Virus record (IMG/VR): IMGVR_UViG_3300035698_019600
Location: 1 to 52,252 of that record
DNA: 52,252 bases
Direction: 5' to 3' (one strand)
DNA from: a virus
Below the pieces are notes generated by a model, which saw only the letters and a list, made by a program, of their open reading frames with translations, was not told the origin of the DNA and did not search any database. This document shows, in pieces, positions 9,836 through 45,212 of the stretch (within the stretch, counting starts at the first letter, position 1; every line of letters begins with the position of its first letter). Made by a program: the position numbers and the translations under genes.

Positions 9836-10522
9836 ATGAGCGAGAACCACATCACGCCGGAAGAAGAGGTGCTGGAGGAGGAGGAGTACGAGGTATACGA
9901 CCTGTTCGCCGAGAGTGAGGATGAGGGCACGCCTTCCTTCGAGCCAGAGGACGGCGACGACGAGGTCTGGGAGACCGCCCACGACCTGGCTGATGAACAT
10001 GAGATCGAGCTGACCCTCACCCGGCTCAAGAAGCTGAGAGCCACGGTGAAGACCCGCGATGATCATGCGGACGCCTACATCGCAGCCGCGAAAGCCAAGT
10101 ATGACGAAGCCGTGGAGGTGGCCAAGAAGTATCGCCGGACTTCCACCAAACGTCCGCTGAACCGGATCAACTGGCACCTGGGGAATCTGGAGGCCATTCT
10201 CCGACAGCAGCCGGACAAGGTGCGGTCGATGGCGTTCATCAACGGCAAGATCAGTCGTCGGGCGATGGGCATGACGTGCAAGGTTGCCAAGGGCAAGGCG
10301 GCGTTGCTTCTGATCGCACTGCGGAAGATAAAGCAGGATGAACTCATCCGCACGAAGGAGACCGAAGAGCCCAACGCCAGCGAGATCAAGAAGGCCATCC
10401 TCGCCGGGAAGGTGGGGCGCCATGACCTGGATGAATTCCTCGAGATCGTCGACCCGCATGACAAGTTCGCCATCTTCACGCCGGAATACGAGGCTCCGGT
10501 CGCACTGGCGGAAGCGACCTGA
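9836..10522 (+). CDS. Gam-like host-nuclease inhibitor (putative)
   Basis: A 228-aa protein. An acidic N-terminal tail (about 1-55) is followed by a long helical hairpin (about 65-105) and a compact domain ending LRKIKQDELIRTKE...KKAILAG. That order resembles the Mu Gam family, where a coiled coil is followed by an FIRxKE-type segment and a hydrophobic KxAI helix. Gam binds double-stranded DNA ends and blocks RecBCD-type exonuclease. Its location beside SSB-like and Rad50-like genes fits. The long acidic tail is unusual. Confidence 0.55.
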   Translation: MSENHITPEEEVLEEEEYEVYDLFAESEDEGTPSFEPEDGDDEVWETAHDLADEHEIELTLTRLKKLRATVKTRDDHADAYIAAAKAKYDEAVEVAKKYRRTSTKRPLNRINWHLGNLEAILRQQPDKVRSMAFINGKISRRAMGMTCKVAKGKAALLLIALRKIKQDELIRTKETEEPNASEIKKAILAGKVGRHDLDEFLEIVDPHDKFAIFTPEYEAPVALAEAT

Positions 10523-10523
10523 C

Positions 10524-10964
10524 GTGGAGGCAGGACAAGAGCATGCCACCATCGTCGCGATGGAGGCGCACCGAAAGCAGACCGACAGGGCAGGTGAGCC
10601 CTACATCAACCACCCCCTTCACGTGGCCGAAGCCATGGACGGCGCCGTAAAGCGAACAGTTGCCATCCTGCACGACGTTGTAGAAGATTCCGAATGGACA
10701 ATCGATGACTTGCGCCAGGAGGGGTTCTCAGTTGAGGTGGTGGAGGCTGTCGCGGCTCTAACAAGAAGCGAAGAGGAGTCATACCAAGGCTACATCACCA
10801 GGGTTAGCAAGAATAACCTTGCGGTAAAGGTTAAGATTGCCGACCTTATGCACAACCTCGACGCCTCCAGACTCACAAGGATCAGAGGCGGAGACGTCAC
10901 ACGCATGGAACGCTACATCATTGCCCTGAGAACGCTCAGGTCACTCGACGCTCCAGAAGTATAG
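10524..10964 (+). CDS. Small RelA/SpoT-type HD hydrolase (MESH1-like)
   Basis: A 146-aa protein counted from GTG 10524, one base after the previous stop. The HD-domain metal ligands of (p)ppGpp hydrolases are all in place: YINHP (H30), LHDVVED (H50, D51) and IADLMHN (D107). There is no synthetase, TGS or ACT domain, so it should be a single-domain hydrolase like MESH1 or the small alarmone hydrolases. Inferred role: removing (p)ppGpp or a related alarmone made by the host or by a toxic synthetase during infection. The frame is open further upstream, but that part is antiphase to the Gam-like gene. Confidence 0.85.
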   Translation: MEAGQEHATIVAMEAHRKQTDRAGEPYINHPLHVAEAMDGAVKRTVAILHDVVEDSEWTIDDLRQEGFSVEVVEAVAALTRSEEESYQGYITRVSKNNLAVKVKIADLMHNLDASRLTRIRGGDVTRMERYIIALRTLRSLDAPEV

Positions 10965-10994: not shown

Positions 10995-11780
10995 ATGGGT
11001 AAGCAGCGGACTGATAGCCCCAAGTTCATCCCCGGCGAAGAAGTCGTAAAGGTTGAATTTGAGCGCGTTGGCTCCAAGATGTTCGGCAAGGACGACAACA
11101 GGTACTACATCCACTCTGTCTGGGTTCCAAGCGAAGACGGCACCGAGCTGATCGAGCACATTTGGTTCATGTACACTCGAGAACAAATGGCCCTGTCCGA
11201 CTTGGGCGTAGCCAAGGGTGACACCGTCAGCATCCAAAAGGTGGCCAGCATTGGCACCTCAGGGAAGCCCATCAGCTCAACCCAGTTCACCAACGCGGCC
11301 GGAGACATGAAGGATTCCAGATACTACTCCGAGAAGAACGCCGAGGCTGAAGCCGGTGAAGGTGGTGGCGGTGGTGGCGGTGGTGGCGGTGGTGGTACCA
11401 AGACGAAGAGGCCGAGCATCACTCCGGCCCAGATTCGGAAGCGGTATGTGGGCTGCATGAAAATGGCCATGAAGATCCTCGCCGACGGAGACCTCGCTGC
11501 AGGATTCGAGCACTTCGGGGTTGACGCCGGCAACCTCGACACGTTCCAGATGCTGTCCATGATCAAGGACATCGCTACCCACCTCGCCATCACCTGCGAC
11601 TACTCCAGTATCACCGACCTGGAAGTCAAGGCAGCGGCAAAGGATGAGCCCGAGGATAGCGCCCCACGCAAGAAGAAGCGCGAGGCAACCGACGGCGGGG
11701 GCGAGGGTGAGTCGACAACACCGCCCAAAAAGAGACGGCAGGCGACCATCCCCGACGATGACGACGACCTGCCGTTCTAG
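10995..11780 (+). CDS. Single-stranded DNA-binding-like protein with polyglycine linker
   Basis: A 261-aa protein. The N-terminal ~115 residues are beta-rich, followed by a run of 12 glycines (residues 123-134) encoded by GGTGGC-type repeats. A helical domain (about 140-205) comes next, then a Lys/Arg/Glu-rich linker and the C-terminal tip DDDDDLPF. An acidic tail ending in LPF is the protein-docking tail of bacterial and phage SSBs. The body is not an obvious classical OB-fold SSB sequence, so the assignment rests on the tail, layout and neighbours. Confidence 0.7.
   Translation: MGKQRTDSPKFIPGEEVVKVEFERVGSKMFGKDDNRYYIHSVWVPSEDGTELIEHIWFMYTREQMALSDLGVAKGDTVSIQKVASIGTSGKPISSTQFTNAAGDMKDSRYYSEKNAEAEAGEGGGGGGGGGGGGTKTKRPSITPAQIRKRYVGCMKMAMKILADGDLAAGFEHFGVDAGNLDTFQMLSMIKDIATHLAITCDYSSITDLEVKAAAKDEPEDSAPRKKKREATDGGGEGESTTPPKKRRQATIPDDDDDLPF
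11360..11396 (+). repeat. GGTGGC micro-repeat encoding polyglycine
   Basis: GGTGGC-type units repeat in register inside the SSB-like gene and encode the glycine linker. Such tracts change length by slippage and can form two-layer G-quadruplexes in single strands. Confidence 0.7.
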
Positions 11781-20253: not shown

Positions 20254-20737
20254 TGTGGGGCCCGGAGAACCCCCAAGGTTGGACAAACGGGGGCTCAGAC
20301 TAGTCACGAGGCATCATGTACCTCCAAGCAGCCTGGTGGGCCGTTTACGGGGCTCTGGCTTGGTGCCTCAATCTACCCACCACCTCCTTGGGAGCCCAAG
20401 GCAACTGCTGCCGGGGGAAAGGCAAAAGAATAATGCATGGTGGTGGGAGGCTGTTGAGCATCCCAGCACACCGGAAGCACGGTGGCTATATCACCGTGAC
20501 CCGGGTTCCCTTGGGATCCCATGTGATTCCCCAAACCTCCCCCACAAGTCTCCCTCCCGGCCTTGGTTTGGTCTCCGGAGTCTCCCTAGAAGCTCTTCTA
20601 CCTATAGTAGGGCTCAACTTTGCCATCTCAGGGGGCTCGAAACCAAAAAGTCTTTCGTTGGGCGCGTGAGGATAACCTGAGGTTTTGTCAAGGGCTATAT
20701 GATGTGTTTTCTCACTTTCTTTCACAAATATTTCTGA
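20060..20737 (+). other. Long non-coding repeat-rich region, candidate origin or control region
   Basis: The longest gene-free stretch in the window. It holds the 136-bp repeats, a CACGGTG/CACCGTG dyad (20478-20498) and a short AT-rich segment (about 20690-20760) just before the helicase promoter. Open frames here are Pro/Arg-rich and lack ribosome-binding sites, so they are rejected. Repeats beside a helicase gene are compatible with a replication origin, but nothing proves it. Confidence 0.5.
20478..20498 (+). repeat. Inverted repeat CACGGTG-N7-CACCGTG
   Basis: Perfect 7-bp arms separated by 7 bases within the gene-free region. It could be a protein-binding dyad or a small hairpin. Confidence 0.5.
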
Positions 20738-20765
20738 GGGTTTTGCGGTTAAATAACCCTATAAC
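20738..20765 (+). promoter_or_regulatory. Phage promoter-like element A (before helicase)
   Basis: GGGTTTTGCGGTTAAATAAC followed by CCTATAAC. It shares GGG, the AAATAACC block and a TATAAC -10-like hexamer with elements B, C and D; the distance from the first G to the hexamer is 22 bases in all four. It lies 47 bases upstream of the helicase ATG. Confidence 0.7.
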
Positions 20766-20811
20766 TGAGGGCCGGCGAGATTGTCGCCGTAGCCCAGGAG
20801 ACCCCTGCAGT

Positions 20812-23800
20812 ATGAATGATCAACCCAACTTGTTCGCCTCCCCGGTAACCGGGCCGAAGTTTGAGATGCGCCCCTACCAGCAGGAGGCAGTGGACACAAG
20901 CATCAAGGCTTTTGGCGAGGGAGTACGGCGCCAAATCGTCCACGCCGCCACTGGCACTGGCAAGACGGTCTTGTTCACTGAACTAATAGACAAGCTCCCA
21001 CCACCGCGCCCCGAGGCCACTCGCGTCCTAATCATGGCCCACCGTGATGAGCTTATCCAGCAGACGGTGGAGGCGGTGCTTCAGAGCAACCCTAATCTAC
21101 GAGTAGGGGTAGAGCAAGGATCATCCAGCGCTAGCGATTCAGACGACGTCATCGTAGCATCAGTGGCGACACTGGGCCGCAAGGATCCCAACCACTCCGA
21201 GGGGTATGGGAGGCGCTTACGGCTCTTGCAACCAAAACAGTTCCGGCTCCTGGTTATTGATGAAGTCCACCATAGCCTGGCATCGACGTATCAGCGTGTC
21301 CTGGACTACTTCGACACGGCCAGCCCGGACAGCGATCTCCTGCTATGGGGGTGCACTGCAACCCCAAACAGGTCGGATGGCAAGGGGCTTGGGAAGCTAT
21401 TCGATGAGATTGTCCACTCCTATGGACTGGTGCCAGCGATTGAAGACAAGTACCTATCCCCAATCAAAGCAATGAAGGTATCAACCGACACATCGCTTGA
21501 GGGTGTGAGGACTCAGGCTGGTGACTGGGCAGCGGGACAGCTATCAGACCGAGTGAACAACGAGGATCGCAATGTTCAGATCGTGAAGGCATGGTACGAC
21601 CACTGTAAGGGCTTCAGGCATTCTACGATTGGATTTTGTGCTAGCGTGGAACACATCTACTCCCTACGTGACTGCTTCCGTGATAATGGGGTTGATGCAC
21701 GGGGACTCGACGGCACGACCGGCAGGGATTTGCGGAGGGAGATGATACAGGGGTTTCGGAACCGGGAGTTCCCGGTACTACTGAACGCAATGGTGCTGTG
21801 CCTCGATGCAGAGACTGAGATCCTGACATCGGACGGCTGGACTGGTATTGACGACATGACATACGGACACAAGGTCGCCAACTGGGACACGGATGGATCG
21901 ATGTTTTTCGATGAGCCCAAGTTCATCGTCCGCCGAGACCGCAAAGAAGGCGAACGGATGGTAGTGCTGGAGACGCGCAGTCGCTCGATCCGCGTGACCG
22001 AAGACCACCGAATGGTGTACAAACCATACGAGAACCGTGACTTCGGCATTGTCCATGCCGGAGACCTGGCTGGCCAGCCAGGGATTCTTCCGGTATGCGG
22101 CCATGCGGAGCCGGTGGTGTTTGACGACATCGAGCAGCCATATGAGTTCTCCGAGGAGGAGAGAACGCAGAAGATCTACGAATCACGCCACTACCTCCAC
22201 TACAATAAGGGCTTGCCGCTGGCTGATGCGGAGACTGCCGCGATAGAGAAAATGGAATACCGTGAGGGTGGGCTCAGGAGAAAACACCCACACGAGCTGA
22301 CATTAGCTGAGTGCGAATTCATCGGGTTCTTCGTTGGCGACGGCACGGTGACGAACCTCCAGAGCGGGGGGATAGAATACAAGGTAAACCAGTCATTCAA
22401 GTATGATGGGATCATTTCCTGGTTCGACAGCGTGATAGCAAAGGTGGGTTTGCACTGTGCGCGAAGAGAGAATCACACTAAGCCAAATGAAGTGATCTAC
22501 AATGGGTCACACTCAATCTCATGGAGTTTCAGTCGCGGCACTGGATCTGGCTCACAGGAAGTTGAAGGGGTGTTTCCAATTGAGCATTTCTTGGACAAGA
22601 GTGGATCGAAGTACCTATGGGGTCTGAACGAGCCCCAGTTCGATGCGTTCATCCGCGGGCTGTGGTTTGCCAACGGGAATCACGGCAAGGCTATTCCGAG
22701 TGACGACCCTGGCAGTCGGCCAAGTGGCGATCGGAAGAAGAGTATGCAGATCTGCTCGGCAAATGGGGAGCTACTTAGGGCGGTGCAGGCTGTGGCAACG
22801 TGCCGCGGCTGGAGAGTGAACATGTCTTCACTGGAGGCCCCAGGGAAACCTGGATTCAACCCCTCAACGATGCACTATATCACCCTCAATCAGAACCAAG
22901 AAACGCATATGATGGCCGCCAGCCACGCCCTCCAATTTGAGGACGGATGGAAATCAGAGAGAGTGTGGTGTGTCACATCAACCACTGGAAACATCGTGAC
23001 TCGCCGCAATGGAACGGTCACAGTGACAGGCAACACTGAAGGGAGCAACATTCCAGCCATCGACGCAATGCTGATGTGCCGTCCGACGAAGTCCCCGCTG
23101 CTGTTCACCCAGGTGGTTGGGCGTGGCACCCGCCTATTCGAGGGAAAGAGTGACTGCCTTGTAATCGACTTCGTAGATGCGTGCGCCGGCAAGAGTCTCA
23201 TGACGGTTCCGAGCCTTTTCGGGATGGACGCAGACTTTGATGCTGAGGGCGAGGATATCGTCCAGGTGCAGCGCCAGGTGGAGGAGCTGTTCGAGGAGAA
23301 CCCGTCAGTCATCAAGGCTACTAGCTTGGTAGACGCACAGAAGATGGTGTCCGAGCATGTCGATCTCCTTAGCTCTGGGGTTGAGGATGATGTGATCAGC
23401 GAGGCAAGTAGATTCATGTGGCGCAAAGTTGGAGATAGCTACATATTGAGGATGAAGGACGATAGGGTGATGACCATTGGTCAGGATGCAATTGGGAAAC
23501 ACTTGATCACACTGCATAGTGGCGGGGAGTCAAAGATTGTTAGGACTCGCCCGGACTTAATGGGCGCCATCAGTGCAGCTGACAACTATATAGCCGACCG
23601 ATTCCCAGACGCCCCAGTACTACTAAGCAGGGATGCGGTATGGAGAACACACCCAATGAGTCCCGGGCAGGTTACGCTGTTCAGAAAATTCAGGATGCAA
23701 ATACCAAGGGGTAGGGATGGGGCTATAACCATGACTAAGGGTGAGGCATCCGATTTGATCGATAAAAAGTTCCTGAGCATGAAGCGCGGTAAGGCAAAGA

Positions 23801-23871
23801 AGGAGAAGAAATCGGCTATCAAGGGTGGGGTGAAGACCAAGGTTGACAACGTCAAAGTTGGCAAGCTATAG
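20812..23871 (+). CDS. SF2 DNA helicase containing an intein
   Basis: A 1019-aa precursor. Helicase motifs: Q-like MRPYQQEAV (19-27), Walker A ATGTGKT (46-52), DEVH (150-153), TATP (182-185) and, after the intein, QVVGRGTR (767-774) with arginine fingers. The intein occupies residues 330-741; splicing rejoins NAMVL to TEGSNIPAID, exactly the conserved motif V region. The mature protein would be about 607 aa, resembling RadD/UvsW-type helicases. ATG 20812 is chosen because upstream in-frame sequence covers promoter element A. QPNLF at residues 4-8 resembles a sliding-clamp-binding motif (inference). Confidence 0.92.
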   Translation: MNDQPNLFASPVTGPKFEMRPYQQEAVDTSIKAFGEGVRRQIVHAATGTGKTVLFTELIDKLPPPRPEATRVLIMAHRDELIQQTVEAVLQSNPNLRVGVEQGSSSASDSDDVIVASVATLGRKDPNHSEGYGRRLRLLQPKQFRLLVIDEVHHSLASTYQRVLDYFDTASPDSDLLLWGCTATPNRSDGKGLGKLFDEIVHSYGLVPAIEDKYLSPIKAMKVSTDTSLEGVRTQAGDWAAGQLSDRVNNEDRNVQIVKAWYDHCKGFRHSTIGFCASVEHIYSLRDCFRDNGVDARGLDGTTGRDLRREMIQGFRNREFPVLLNAMVLCLDAETEILTSDGWTGIDDMTYGHKVANWDTDGSMFFDEPKFIVRRDRKEGERMVVLETRSRSIRVTEDHRMVYKPYENRDFGIVHAGDLAGQPGILPVCGHAEPVVFDDIEQPYEFSEEERTQKIYESRHYLHYNKGLPLADAETAAIEKMEYREGGLRRKHPHELTLAECEFIGFFVGDGTVTNLQSGGIEYKVNQSFKYDGIISWFDSVIAKVGLHCARRENHTKPNEVIYNGSHSISWSFSRGTGSGSQEVEGVFPIEHFLDKSGSKYLWGLNEPQFDAFIRGLWFANGNHGKAIPSDDPGSRPSGDRKKSMQICSANGELLRAVQAVATCRGWRVNMSSLEAPGKPGFNPSTMHYITLNQNQETHMMAASHALQFEDGWKSERVWCVTSTTGNIVTRRNGTVTVTGNTEGSNIPAIDAMLMCRPTKSPLLFTQVVGRGTRLFEGKSDCLVIDFVDACAGKSLMTVPSLFGMDADFDAEGEDIVQVQRQVEELFEENPSVIKATSLVDAQKMVSEHVDLLSSGVEDDVISEASRFMWRKVGDSYILRMKDDRVMTIGQDAIGKHLITLHSGGESKIVRTRPDLMGAISAADNYIADRFPDAPVLLSRDAVWRTHPMSPGQVTLFRKFRMQIPRGRDGAITMTKGEASDLIDKKFLSMKRGKAKKEKKSAIKGGVKTKVDNVKVGKL
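21799..23034 (+). other. Intein with LAGLIDADG-type endonuclease domain
   Basis: 412 in-frame codons from Cys330 (CLDAETEILTSDGW) to Asn741. Block B is RVTEDHR with the splicing His. The homing-endonuclease domain has FIGFFVGDG (GDG at 509-511) and a second helix LWFANGNH (619-624) where the expected acidic residue is Asn. Block F is VWCVTSTTGNIVTRRNG and the end is VTGN followed by Thr. The penultimate residue is Gly, not the usual His, as I recall from some phage inteins of this WCVT class. Confidence 0.9.
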
Positions 23872-26728: not shown

Positions 26729-27112
26729 ATGGACGCAGTGGCAGAAATGGACATCATGGACAGAGCTGGAGAGATATTCTCACGTGCGGTTGACTTGTGG
26801 GGAGTGGACGCGCAGCTCAACCAGACAGTGGAAGAGCTTGCCGAGCTGATCGTGGCTATCAATCACTTCCGGCGGCGTAGGGCGAGTCCATGGCGCCTGG
26901 CAGAAGAGGTGGCAGATACCATGATCATGGTCGGACAGCTGGTGCACATCATGGATGAGGAGATTGGGAATGGCGAGATGTCGCGGTTGGTAGCGATGCA
27001 CGAACAGGCGAAGATGAAGTCTGTTCTGGAGCGAATCGAGCGCGGAGAGGTGAGCCGCCTGGCAGAGCTGGAGTCAGAGATACAGGACATCATGGCCGGG
27101 GAGGAGGAGTGA
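26729..27112 (+). CDS. MazG-like nucleotide pyrophosphohydrolase
   Basis: A 127-aa all-helical protein with the paired metal motifs of MazG: EELAEL (E36, E39) and EEVADT (E60, D63). MazG-like enzymes hydrolyse NTPs or dNTPs to monophosphates, and some phage versions have been proposed to act on alarmones. It fits with ThyX and dUTPase in nucleotide-pool control, and possibly with the HD hydrolase. It ends in a TGATG overlap. Confidence 0.85.
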   Translation: MDAVAEMDIMDRAGEIFSRAVDLWGVDAQLNQTVEELAELIVAINHFRRRRASPWRLAEEVADTMIMVGQLVHIMDEEIGNGEMSRLVAMHEQAKMKSVLERIERGEVSRLAELESEIQDIMAGEEE

Positions 27113-34105: not shown

Positions 34106-35563
34106 ATGGCCATTCAGTGTGAATGCGGTGGATCAGCTCATGTAAACCGGCACAACAAGAACGGCTCAGTCTACTACCTGTGCCGACAGTGCAAGACCTC
34201 CTACACGCGCTCGGCAGAGGATCTAGGTGGAGAGGACAACGCCATGCTTACGGGGAAGCCTGAGGTGTTGGATCTCGTCGTGCAGGATGAAGCGGAGGAC
34301 GTCCACCTGTTCACAGTCAATGGTAAACCGCACGAGGGGCCGGTCGATGGATCTCTGAAGGCGAACAAGGCTGAGGTTAAAGCCCAGTTCAGCCAGAGCG
34401 ATCTGGGCGGTGTTCCAACTCTCAAGCGAATCATGAAGTGGCTCCAGATCGATGAGAGCGTGTGGTTTGTATCCCACTGGAAGCCGAAGCTGTGGCAGAT
34501 GGGGTACAAGGATTCAGATGGCGTGGCGCACCGGCTGCCGCTGCTAAGCGTTATTCTCAACATTGAGCGGATCGAGCGCATCGAGATTGATATACCGCCG
34601 CCCCCGGTTATCAGACTTGCCAACCCACCACAGGCACCTAGGGTGATTCATGGCCCATACGACGGCATAGGCAAGGCAATCTTCGCCTCCGACTTCCATA
34701 TCGGGTACAGGCGCGACATGAGATCAGGGCAGATACACCCATACCACGATCGTCCGGCTATCATGGCAATGCTGGAGCTAGCCAGTAGACGGAATATTGA
34801 CACGCTGATCTTGGGTGGGGATCTGCTTGACGTGCCCGAGTTCACGTCACGGTTCCCACGTAAACCAGAAGACTACTTCACTCTGCGCCCGGCTGTGATT
34901 GAGGCAAAGTGGCTCCTGACGCAAATGCGTATCATGCTACCAGACACCCGGATCGTGTGGATGGAGGGGAATCACGAGGTACGCCTCAGGACTTTCACCC
35001 GTGACCAGATGATCGCTGCGTACGACTTGACCGACTACAGAGATGACGATCCACTGCTGTCGGCGCCAAACCTGGTAGGACTCAGCGAAATAGACGTTGA
35101 GTGGCTACCAGGCTATCCCGACAATGAGATTTGGCTGAACCGCGGCCTCCGGGCTATCCATGGCGGTGTGGCCCGGGCGAAGGCTGGCCAGACTGCATCC
35201 TTCTACGCCAAGGAACTGCGTATCAATACAGTCTTTGGGCACATCCATCGGCGTGAGCAGATTTCTGACGCAGTATATGATCGGCCGGGGATGAGGCGTG
35301 TGACGGAGGGGATGAGCCCTGGCATGATGGGGATCCCAGAGATGGTGCCAGCAGCCAAGGAGCGTCACGACTGGCAGGTGGGCTTTGCTGGAATCGACTA
35401 CGTCGTGAATGGTCTTGGTTACAACTATAGCCCAGTGTCAGTCGAAGGTGGGAGCCTGCTAGACAGTGGCGAGTTGATCATCGGGGCAGACTACACCGAA
35501 AAACTACGGCATGACACCGGCTGGTCGATCTACGGCACAGCCCAACCAACCGTAGCAGTGTAG
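34106..35563 (+). CDS. Calcineurin-like metallophosphoesterase with N-terminal zinc ribbon
   Basis: A 485-aa protein. C5/C7 and C27/C30 form an N-terminal zinc ribbon, followed by an HTH-like segment (VPTLKRIMKWLQID), a linker with IPPPP, and a phosphoesterase domain: SDFHIGY (D196, H198), GGDLLD (D239, D242), GNHE (288-291), a later HGG and GHIH. Such enzymes are phosphodiesterases or nucleases (Mre11, SbcD) or phosphatases. It sits exactly between the two terminase halves, so a packaging or DNA-end role is attractive but inferred. Confidence 0.88.
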   Translation: MAIQCECGGSAHVNRHNKNGSVYYLCRQCKTSYTRSAEDLGGEDNAMLTGKPEVLDLVVQDEAEDVHLFTVNGKPHEGPVDGSLKANKAEVKAQFSQSDLGGVPTLKRIMKWLQIDESVWFVSHWKPKLWQMGYKDSDGVAHRLPLLSVILNIERIERIEIDIPPPPVIRLANPPQAPRVIHGPYDGIGKAIFASDFHIGYRRDMRSGQIHPYHDRPAIMAMLELASRRNIDTLILGGDLLDVPEFTSRFPRKPEDYFTLRPAVIEAKWLLTQMRIMLPDTRIVWMEGNHEVRLRTFTRDQMIAAYDLTDYRDDDPLLSAPNLVGLSEIDVEWLPGYPDNEIWLNRGLRAIHGGVARAKAGQTASFYAKELRINTVFGHIHRREQISDAVYDRPGMRRVTEGMSPGMMGIPEMVPAAKERHDWQVGFAGIDYVVNGLGYNYSPVSVEGGSLLDSGELIIGADYTEKLRHDTGWSIYGTAQPTVAV

Positions 35564-40677: not shown

Positions 40678-41448
40678 CTACGCAAGCTCGTCCCTGAGCA
40701 TTGCCACCGCGTCATTGAACCACTTCACATACCGGCTGATGTGCTCTCCAGTGTTGATTGGATAGCAGCGCAGACCCCATGGATTGTGCGCGTTCCTGTT
40801 GGGGTACAGTCCACCGGCATTATAGCCAGCAGCCACCAGCGGTGGGTCATAGTTGGTGAGCTCGCTCTGGCGGGCAATATAGGCTACTCCTGCCTGGATG
40901 CTGTTGCCGGGATCCTCAAGCCACGCAGCATCTATCTCCGACATGTGCAAGGTCTCTTGGGCGGTAGACAATAGGGTCTGCATGAGACCAACGGAAACCC
41001 TATGCGGGGTTTCAAGATCACTGACATACCCAGGCTCCTCTCGGCGGGCGCCTGCGCCTCCAGATGACTCGGTGGCAATGGTGGCTATGACCAGCTCCTC
41101 TGGTACCTGGTAGAATGCGCACCACTTCTTGATGTCCTCGCCATACCGATTCCATATCACCCCCACTGTGACGGGATCACCAGCAGTCCGTGGCACCTGG
41201 ATCGGACAACTACCGCCATGGAAGGCCCATCGGGTAGCGACCCCACTGTCTATCAGTTTCCATGCGTGGGTGAATGGGTTGTCCGGGAATCGCCGATGGA
41301 ATGACTTCACGCTATCCGGGTAGGCATCCCGTACGTCGTATGGCCGGCGCTTCTGTGGCGCCACGCTAAACCCTTCATAAGTCTGGGATTGAGCAGCAAT
41401 TACCGCTCTGGCGATCGCCTTGACGAATCGTAACAGCAGCCCCCGCAT
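40678..41448 (-). CDS. Lytic transglycosylase-like endolysin
   Basis: A 256-aa protein. The lysozyme-like SLT domain (about 105-245) has catalytic Glu in IATIATESSGG (E127), then VGLMQTLLSTAQ, DPGNSIQAGVAYIARQ and PPLVAAGYNAGG, the ordered motifs of family 1 transglycosylases cleaving peptidoglycan. The N-terminus MRGLLLRFVKAIARAVIAA is an amphipathic or membrane-attaching helix, not a classical signal peptide. It is the last gene of the minus-strand operon. Confidence 0.9.
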   Translation of the reverse strand: MRGLLLRFVKAIARAVIAAQSQTYEGFSVAPQKRRPYDVRDAYPDSVKSFHRRFPDNPFTHAWKLIDSGVATRWAFHGGSCPIQVPRTAGDPVTVGVIWNRYGEDIKKWCAFYQVPEELVIATIATESSGGAGARREEPGYVSDLETPHRVSVGLMQTLLSTAQETLHMSEIDAAWLEDPGNSIQAGVAYIARQSELTNYDPPLVAAGYNAGGLYPNRNAHNPWGLRCYPINTGEHISRYVKWFNDAVAMLRDELA

Positions 41449-41450
41449 AC

Positions 41451-41774
41451 CTACTTACCCCCCTTCGGCTTGGGCCCGGGCTTCTTCTTGGGGACAATGG
41501 TGCACCGCACACCGGAGACCAATGCCACCGGAACGGACACTGCGAACGCCCAAGCATCGAAATATGGGAGTATCCCAATCACCCTGACATCGTGCTCCTT
41601 GGTGGCAAGTTTCGCCTTGATGGCGTACTTGACGAACTCGCGCCCGATCGCTGCCTGCTGTTCCTCTACCTCGCTGAGAGCTAGGGCGTCCTCGGACGTA
41701 TCCGCAACAATGCGCGAAATGAATCCAGTCTGCCGCTCCAGGTACACATTGTTGTCACTACCCCGCGTCGCCAT
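41451..41774 (-). CDS. Hypothetical protein of the lysis block, holin candidate
   Basis: About 107 aa counted from the ATG at 41774. A helical N-terminal half is followed by VIGILPYFDAWAFAVSVPVA, a mostly hydrophobic stretch of ~25 residues, then a Lys/Pro-rich basic tail (KKKPGPKPKGGK). One hydrophobic segment with a basic tail beside an endolysin gene suggests a holin, but the segment contains Asp and is marginal for a membrane helix. Confidence 0.6.
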   Translation of the reverse strand: MATRGSDNNVYLERQTGFISRIVADTSEDALALSEVEEQQAAIGREFVKYAIKAKLATKEHDVRVIGILPYFDAWAFAVSVPVALVSGVRCTIVPKKKPGPKPKGGK

Positions 41775-41982
41775 CCTCGACCTCCCGGCTAAGTTTCTCG
41801 TGCATAGCATCTCGCATGAAAGCGCTGAAGCTTTGGTACTGGCGATTGTCAGCATCCAGTATCAGGCCAGATTTGATCCGCCTCATCAGCTCGTCGACGA
41901 TAGCTTCATCTCCGTGCTGGAAATACATCGTCTGAGCGAACCCTCTCTTTGAGTTCCGCTTGCCCACCCCCTGTCCCATCAT
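41758..41982 (-). CDS. Small ribbon-helix-helix-like protein
   Basis: A 74-aa basic protein from the ATG at 41982 in an ATGA overlap with the RecA-like gene. FAQTMYFQHGDEAIVDELM followed by SFSAFMRDAMHEKL resembles the strand-helix-helix of RHH DNA-binding proteins. It could regulate this divergent region or be part of the recombination set. It overlaps the next gene by 17 bases. Confidence 0.6.
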   Translation of the reverse strand: MMGQGVGKRNSKRGFAQTMYFQHGDEAIVDELMRRIKSGLILDADNRQYQSFSAFMRDAMHEKLSREVEDGDAG

Positions 41983-42596
41983 GCTTCACCTCCATGAAAT
42001 GGAATGAATAACTGGCACCGGCCGCGAGCCGGGGCTATGGTAGTTTTTGTGCACATGCATGCCACATCCATACCTACTATTGTACCACTTTTCTTCACTT
42101 CCCGCAAGAACCTTACCTCGAACCTCTGGGCAGCATATCGAGAAAGGGCTGAATGCCCAGTAGATCGATACATCAGGTCGCAATGATTGATCACCAACAC
42201 CACCGCATTCAACCTCTTAGCCGCCCTCACCATTACTGATGTTAAGTCAATGGTGCCCCTCCCGCCAAGTACTGCAACTGGGTCGAATACAACAATGCCA
42301 ACTGAGCCGGGGGAGAACTCGTCTAGAGCCTTGGCGTACTCACCTGGCTCTCTCCTGCCCGGGAACACGTAGGTCTGGTTGGCTATTCCACGCTCCTCTG
42401 CTATATACTCCGGGAATGTGCGGTCGATGTCGAAGTACACAGCCGGTAGCTGTGTCTGTGCTATCATGCTCAGGGCTAGCGACGTCTTCCCGCCACCCTC
42501 ATCCCCATATAGCTCTGCAACGCGGCCGCGGATAATCCCGCCTCCGGCTATTTGGTCAATGTCTGGATTGCCAGATGACAGTAGATCGTATCTCAT
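41979..42596 (-). CDS. Short RecA-like recombinase ATPase
   Basis: A 205-aa RecA-fold core. SSGNPDIDQIAGGGIIRGRV leads to Walker A GDEGGGKTS (31-39), Walker B GIVVFD (D105), and an LVINH segment as in RecA/Sak4-type ATPases. It lacks the RecA N-terminal domain and large C-terminal domain, which matches Sak4/UvsX-like short phage recombinases. Its ATG is six bases after promoter element D and has no Shine-Dalgarno, so it may be translated from a leaderless mRNA. Confidence 0.88.
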   Translation of the reverse strand: MRYDLLSSGNPDIDQIAGGGIIRGRVAELYGDEGGGKTSLALSMIAQTQLPAVYFDIDRTFPEYIAEERGIANQTYVFPGRREPGEYAKALDEFSPGSVGIVVFDPVAVLGGRGTIDLTSVMVRAAKRLNAVVLVINHCDLMYRSTGHSALSRYAAQRFEVRFLREVKKSGTIVGMDVACMCTKTTIAPARGRCQLFIPFHGGEA

Positions 42597-44342: not shown

Positions 44343-44768
44343 ATGGTACAGCCAAGAATCCTGTTCGACACCAAGGCTATTTCCCCGGCCAACATCCTGA
44401 CCATCCCCGGTTCCACCGTGGATCTGAAGCGAGGCGATCTGCTGAGTTTCGAGTCCGCTGCCGCAGTCCTGATGGATGGCGCTGCAGAGGATGTCACGTT
44501 CTGCGGTGCCGCTCTCAATCAGTACACGAGCGGAAATCGTCAGCCACAGCAAGTGATGGCGGCCATGGTCTGCATGATTGAGATCGACGCCACATCGGCA
44601 GCGTATGCCCTGTTCGACGGGTTGACATACACGTCGAAGAACACCCTGGTCGATGACGGTGGCGCGAACACCATGGCATGGTGCGGTCGTAAGACTGGAA
44701 CAGCCACCCGCATCCAAGCATACATCAACGTCCCGGCGTTGGGTAAGCTGTTCGCAGTTAGCGCATAG
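44343..44768 (+). CDS. Putative capsid decoration/structural protein, copy 1
   Basis: A 141-aa beta-rich protein with GAGGAGAACTGAACC upstream. It is nearly identical in layout to the next gene. Its place between scaffold and major capsid genes is where siphophages encode head-decoration proteins. Motifs: STVDLKRGDLLSFESAAAV, then a conserved Cys (FCGAALNQYTSGN) and QQVMAAMV. The role is inferred from position. Confidence 0.8.
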   Translation: MVQPRILFDTKAISPANILTIPGSTVDLKRGDLLSFESAAAVLMDGAAEDVTFCGAALNQYTSGNRQPQQVMAAMVCMIEIDATSAAYALFDGLTYTSKNTLVDDGGANTMAWCGRKTGTATRIQAYINVPALGKLFAVSA

Positions 44769-44786: not shown

Positions 44787-45212
44787 ATGGCACAGCCAAG
44801 AATCCTGTTCGACACAAAGGCAATCTCCCCAGCCCATATCCTGACCATCCCCGGCTCCACTGTGGATTTGGAGAGGGGTGACCTGCTGAGCTTTGAGTCT
44901 GCCGCTGCAGTCAAGATGGATCTGGTCACCGAGGATGCCACATTCTGCGGAGCCGCTCTCAACCAGTACACGAGTGGCAACCGCCAGCCGCAGCAGGTGA
45001 TGGCAGCCATGGTCTGCGTGCTCGAGATCGACGCCACATCGGCAGCGTATGCCGTGTTTGAGGCGCTGAAGTGGGGTGCTGCGAACTCACTCGTCACCGA
45101 CGGTAGTGCGAACACTATCGCATGGTGCGCTCGCAAGACTGGCACCGCCACAAGTATCCAAGCATACGTCAACGTTCCGGCGTTGAAGAAGCTGTTTGCA
45201 GTCAGCGCCTAA
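44787..45212 (+). CDS. Putative capsid decoration/structural protein, copy 2
   Basis: A 141-aa tandem paralogue of the preceding protein, same length, with most residues unchanged; differences gather in DGAAEDV/DLVTEDA and around residues 90-112. GGAGAACCGAACT precedes both copies, so the duplication included the ribosome-binding site. Both copies are intact. Confidence 0.82.
   Translation: MAQPRILFDTKAISPAHILTIPGSTVDLERGDLLSFESAAAVKMDLVTEDATFCGAALNQYTSGNRQPQQVMAAMVCVLEIDATSAAYAVFEALKWGAANSLVTDGSANTIAWCARKTGTATSIQAYVNVPALKKLFAVSA

Follow-up and report, generated by a model that had tools for sequence, protein, structure and literature searches.

A probable stand-alone adenosine 3'-pyrophosphohydrolase of the Aph1 family in a phage genome record

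The hydrolase gene and its surroundings

The window, by which the whole analysed stretch of 52,252 bases is meant, is a virus contig containing portal, head protease and capsid genes. The record is probably incomplete, as it terminates in an open ORF ahead of any recognised tail region and contains no tail genes that could be recognised. There are no tRNA genes in the window, and PADLOC gave only a weak, chance-like match on it. The search for a named phage near to the window yielded none, for which reason no host is claimed, and a search of viral contigs with the single hydrolase protein returned no close relative. The main features are the following.

9836..10522, plus strand: Mu Gam-like protein, the upstream neighbour, ending 1 nt ahead of the hydrolase start codon
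10524..10964, plus strand: Aph1-like stand-alone HD hydrolase, probable adenosine 3'-pyrophosphohydrolase, 146 aa, GTG start
10584..10604, plus strand: base-recognition loop D-R-A-G-E-P-Y, codons 21-27, from alignments
10671..10688, plus strand: metal-binding and catalytic HD/ED motif H-D-V-V-E-D, codons 50-55, from the alignment
10842..10874, plus strand: D-L-M-H-N-L-D-A-S-R-L, codons 107-117, with the last metal ligand D107, N111 and the N-x-D-x-x-R-L stretch
10995..11780, plus strand: SSB-like protein, the downstream neighbour, with an acidic SSB-type C-terminal tip
26729..27112, plus strand: MazG-like nucleotide pyrophosphohydrolase, distant from the hydrolase and with no demonstrated link to it

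The hydrolase ORF is intact, with 146 codons and no internal stop in its translation. The GTG start codon lies 1 base past the upstream gene's stop and is preceded at 8 nt by GGAAG, and the GC content of the gene, 56%, is like that of the rest of the window. Pfam HD_4 is the sole domain above cut-off (34.3 bits, cut-off 27.2), and PHROG 990, 'metal-dependent phosphohydrolase', matches the protein with 1.8e-47. At E <= 1e-5, tblastn with the protein matched 525 phage records, with 46.8% identity at 93% query coverage for the top match (E 1e-29), which indicates a real gene and not a chance reading frame. The earlier note on this DNA, which proposed a single-domain phage alarmone hydrolase, is borne out by the HD-only ORF, its Pfam match and its numerous phage relatives.

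The same note had placed the gene next to Gam-like and SSB-like genes. The Gam-like assignment stands, although the PF07352 score of 27.7 bits is just under the Pfam cut-off of 28.3 (PHROG 491, E 4e-4), and the SSB-like one is based on the C-terminal tip DDDDDLPF, with no domain match. The MazG-like gene mentioned there at 26.7 kb was recovered through PHROG 2245 (1.5e-19), its Pfam score of 19.4 bits being below the cut-off of 22. The absence of a synthetase domain also holds for the whole 52,252-base record, in which neither a RelA_SpoT synthetase (Pfam PF04607) nor, with a profile built from Apk2-type toxin domains, an Apk2-type toxin domain was found. The hydrolase was also sought in a related phage (record G001, capsid 72% identical) and was not found; the parts of G001 compared have almost no similarity to the early region of the window, and consequently no empty site can be read there.

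Several other features of the window are worth describing. Residues 394-465 of the RadD/ResIII-like helicase ORF at 20620-23871 (1083 aa) resemble the N-terminal splicing region of an intein (NCBIfam TIGR01445, 25.4 bits with a cut-off of 24.5; Pfam Hint under cut-off); this region follows the first helicase part, the helicase match being picked up again near residue 804. Shortly ahead of the capsid gene, two neighbouring ORFs of 141 aa each, at 44343-44768 and 44787-45212, represent a tandem duplication, in that both match one and the same gene (L100 1407-1826) in a related phage, with 56% and 59% identity. The otherwise plus-strand structural genes are interrupted between portal and head protease by a minus-strand block at 40678-42596 comprising SLT transglycosylase and RecA-like ORFs. 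In the 485-aa ORF at 34106-35563 the C-terminal part resembles calcineurin-like metallophosphoesterases, and the N-terminal part, of ~185 aa, has no assignment.

Family placement and active-site residues

The closest solved protein is PDB 7SMG, '(p)ppApp hydrolase from Bacteroides caccae' (Aph1), with 39.6% identity to the window protein. In phmmer it was matched with an E value of 7e-27, the next one being 4e-12, and a 36-member profile comprising the window protein and 35 homologues matched it with 6.5e-56, followed by a Rel-type GTP pyrophosphokinase with 6.4e-19. The AlphaFold2 model of the hydrolase (mean pLDDT 95.5, pTM 0.90) superimposes on 7SMG with TM scores of 0.92/0.95 and an rmsd of 1.4 Å, compared with 0.76/0.64 and 3.0 Å for human MESH1, the next-best fold, and a TM score of about 0.7 for Rel/SpoT. 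In the maximum-likelihood tree a split with 98/97 support puts the window protein together with Aph1, the opposite side being occupied by RelSeq, SpoT, T. thermophilus Rel, human MESH1, fly Mesh1 and PaSpo of phage SSU5. It does not group with PaSpo, and MESH1 is not its closest relative by tree or by fold.

The metal and catalytic ligands of the H..HD..ED..D pattern, namely H30, H50-D51, E54-D55 and D107, are complete and invariant across the 36 aligned sequences, with H30, H50, D51 and D107 found exactly where the earlier note had put them, and N111 is conserved as well. The N-x-D-x-x-R-L stretch with D113 and R116 sets Aph1-like proteins apart from Rel/SpoT/MESH1, which have N-x-R. In the loop preceding the first ligand the alignment is ungapped, reading Q-V-R-K-S-G-E-P-Y in RelSeq versus Q-T-D-R-A-G-E-P-Y in the window protein, and Asp21 stands at the position of the guanine-stacking Arg (RelSeq R44, SpoT R45). 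In A. baumannii SpoT R45 stacks guanine and its substitution with Ala abolishes hydrolysis (PMC9974481), while the RelSeq residue, Arg44, is in contact with guanine and with Asn148, and activity is lost in R44Q (PMC13299517).

Asp at position 21 is common to 7SMG, to Aph1-type proteins of pneumococcal, Pasteurella and Mannheimia origin, to several phage proteins with no toxin linkage and to three alphaproteobacterial plasmid proteins which are 43-50% identical to the window protein. One set of viral homologues was fetched with a pattern requiring D21, so D21 is there by selection; the independent evidence comes from the phage and plasmid homologues derived by tblastn. D113, R116 and Y131, on which the pattern set no condition, provide further independent evidence. 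The equivalent of RelSeq R150 is Asp113 in the window protein, and Asp is also found there in most of these phage proteins, the exceptions being Cys in the Mannheimia prophage homologue with the toxin-linked gene order and Leu in Streptomyces phage Frankenweenie. D21 and D113 can be regarded as putative markers of base specificity derived from the alignment. Ahmad et al. in 2023 reportedly broadened Aph1 to ppGpp by mutating two signature residues.

Taken together, the sequence, profile, tree, predicted fold and active-site residues place the hydrolase with Aph1, apart from Rel/SpoT, MESH1 and PaSpo. It is a divergent new phage member of a family that has already been described.

This placement bears on the substrate. 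The earlier note had named (p)ppGpp, which is probably wrong, and a (p)ppGpp hydrolase holding the stringent response off during infection is an improbable explanation here. The protein does carry Rel/SpoT-type HD motifs and matches NCBIfam spoT_relA with 1.3e-14, the score being far under cut-off, and ppGpp has been suggested as a target of alarmone hydrolases in phages (PMC12846349); however, the essential guanine-stacking Arg is Asp in the window protein, and the tree, profile and fold all favour a (p)ppApp hydrolase. Asp at this position together with the Aph1 placement also makes ppGpp removal to keep the host growing, as the earlier note suggested, a less likely role. It is very improbable that NADPH, PAPS or some other nucleotide is the main substrate: MESH1, solved in complex with NADPH and with PAPS, is the next-best fold, but it is clearly worse as a match than 7SMG, and its R/R residues correspond to D/D in the window protein.

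The tree also grouped the window protein with Pakpunavirus-type proteins, to which no weight is given, these being long-branched and devoid of D21. A genome-contig scan with the single protein gave eight loci, of which seven belong to the D21 type and the eighth is a full-length Rel. Pseudomonas phages Pyxpy01 and JG004 (L012 and L014), Vibrio phage CoeS_P1 (L007) and Achelous (L013) have yet another kind of HD hydrolase, in which the loop is shortened or altered, D21 and the guanine-stacking Arg are both missing and the N-x-D-x-x-R-L stretch is absent; its substrate is hard to guess.

Toxin-linked and stand-alone relatives

The best phage tblastn matches are pneumococcal prophage hydrolases encoded in the order MuF protein, small gene, hydrolase, and in pneumococcal, Pasteurella and Mannheimia phages alike the hydrolase gene follows those for the portal, a MuF protein and a small protein. 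The published order apk2-iapK-aph1 represents a (p)ppApp-making toxin and two immunity proteins, and Aph1 proteins cross-protect E. coli against several (p)ppApp-making toxins (PMC12226406). Prophage Aph1 is often an immunity protein adjoining Apk2, a (p)ppApp-synthesising MuF toxin. In the window, apk2 and iapK genes are not found immediately upstream of the hydrolase, the Gam-like gene being there instead.

The gene context was surveyed in 80 viral loci representing 50 distinct hydrolases, a sample biased to close matches. An Apk2-like toxin domain is located within about 0.5 kb upstream in 24 of these proteins and is absent in the other 26, three of which are cut or have only a short flank upstream. 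The toxin-linked or stand-alone label switches at least five or six times on the tree. The window protein belongs to a supported set of 11 rows (96/81), eight of them toxin-linked and two unlabelled, in which it is the only labelled stand-alone member. This suggests that the window hydrolase may have descended from an immunity gene, its own end branch being long and the sample biased as noted.

The same tree set, and the upstream toxin domain in nearly half of the distinct viral proteins, would also suit an immunity partner of an Apk2-like toxin encoded in the genome part outside the record. This is nevertheless quite improbable, as in all 24 linked cases the toxin and hydrolase genes are within about 0.5 kb of each other, the gene upstream in the window is Gam-like, and no Apk2-like domain was detected anywhere in the record.

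ORFs of ~290-400 aa located just upstream of Aph1-like genes in six loci (L018:5773-6678, L044:1211-2077, L086:5237-6412, L092:5452-6651, and also in L096 and L097) match the Apk2-type synthetase profile with E values of 1e-57 or better and have no Pfam family. They are shorter than the usual MuF toxin, several are in contigs of more than 100 kb, and those in L092, L096 and L097 adjoin a thyX-like gene. These ORFs are possible non-MuF carriers of the toxin domain.

Probable substrate and role

The best overall explanation, and quite a probable one, is an Aph1-family metal-dependent adenosine 3'-pyrophosphohydrolase which most likely acts on (p)ppApp and may work alone in infection. It is proposed to act in this way, and not as the immunity partner within a toxin pair, on the grounds that no (p)ppApp synthetase was found beside the gene. 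The enzyme would cleave the 3'-pyrophosphate off (p)ppApp in a Mn2+-dependent reaction, giving ATP/ADP back to the pool, and would prefer (p)ppApp over (p)ppGpp. With less confidence, it may be expressed early in infection and blunt (p)ppApp-type toxSAS, in which case the infected cell and its ATP pool would be shielded against toxic synthetases of the (p)ppApp type, whether encoded by the host, by prophages or by competing bacteria. The enzyme may plausibly serve as a counter-toxin or counter-defence protein directed at adenosine-type toxic alarmone synthetases. The other role suggested in the earlier note, the disarming of toxic small alarmone synthetases, is accordingly a plausible hypothesis.

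Several points count against specificity for (p)ppApp. HD hydrolases can be lax in their choice of base, as MESH1 accepts both types of alarmone and Xanthomonas SAH cleaves both as well as NADPH. The identity to the solved enzyme 7SMG is only about 40%, and the Mannheimia homologue has Cys at position 113 despite its toxin-linked gene order. SAHMex is a (p)ppApp-only enzyme (PMC7644958). As for the stand-alone reading, the incompleteness of the record means that a toxin gene could sit elsewhere in the phage.

Removal of the 3'-pyrophosphate from tRNA CCA ends, which would undo CapRel/FaRel2-type phage defence, is possible but unlikely. The modified group is a 3'-pyrophosphorylated adenosine, which could suit an adenosine-specific enzyme, and this is a setting where a stand-alone copy would pay off; moreover, SAHs including PaSpo of Salmonella phage SSU5 neutralise FaRel2, CapRel was purified with PaSpo co-expressed (PMC11559606, PMC9712102), and tRNA depyrophosphorylation by SAH has been reported (PMC9765508). 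On the other hand, PaSpo and MESH1 are across the tree split and are not of the D21 type, and no report of an Aph1-type enzyme acting on tRNA was found. Somewhat more doubtful is a formerly toxin-immunity protein turned stand-alone early counter-defence protein that would reverse adenosine 3'-pyrophosphorylation on tRNA CCA ends as well as in (p)ppApp; if this were true, one enzyme would defeat both kinds of toxic small alarmone synthetase.

For the preferred (p)ppApp hydrolase, the change of the substrate call from ppGpp to ppApp alters the expected biology to ATP rescue from a toxin instead of stringent-response control, and the survey indicates that many phages encode this hydrolase type with no adjacent toxin (26 of the 50 distinct viral proteins sampled). 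If stand-alone copies block (p)ppApp- or tRNA-targeting toxSAS in infection, this would show how phages overcome such defences. HD alarmone hydrolases have already been proposed as counter-defence in jumbo phages (PMC7824862), and in Pseudomonas phage Adele an enzyme of this kind has been proposed to interfere with alarmones jointly with a MazG-like gene (PMC12846349). The counter-defence idea is in print for other phages, and what is added here is the corrected substrate call and the stand-alone evidence.

Among known systems, Aph1 (B. caccae, PDB 7SMG, and also Streptococcus, Mannheimia and Pasteurella prophages) shares with the window protein a single HD domain of ~140 aa with 40-46% identity, the same fold (rmsd 1.4 Å, predicted model), the same metal ligands and the D21/D113 type, and differs in context, having the Apk2 MuF toxin and IapK genes alongside, whereas the window copy adjoins Gam-like and SSB-like genes. 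Stand-alone phage hydrolases of the PHROG 990 type, such as those from Klebsiella phage KpS11, Aeromonas GomatiRiver_11, Sinorhizobium phiM12 and Agrobacterium Atu_ph07, are likewise of the D21/D113 type with no adjoining toxin gene where the flanks were read, but they are only 30-42% identical to the window protein, have other neighbours and belong to phages of 135-490 kb. PaSpo, too, is an HD hydrolase within the RSH superfamily that stands alone in a phage; unlike the window protein, it has 213 aa, lacks the D21 type, is on the opposite side of the tree and is known to neutralise tRNA-modifying toxSAS. The hydrolase domains of MESH1/Rel/SpoT share the superfamily and the catalytic ligands with the window protein and differ from it in the Arg at the guanine-stacking position and in lower fold similarity, with Rel/SpoT additionally having an extra insert between the ED and last D motifs.
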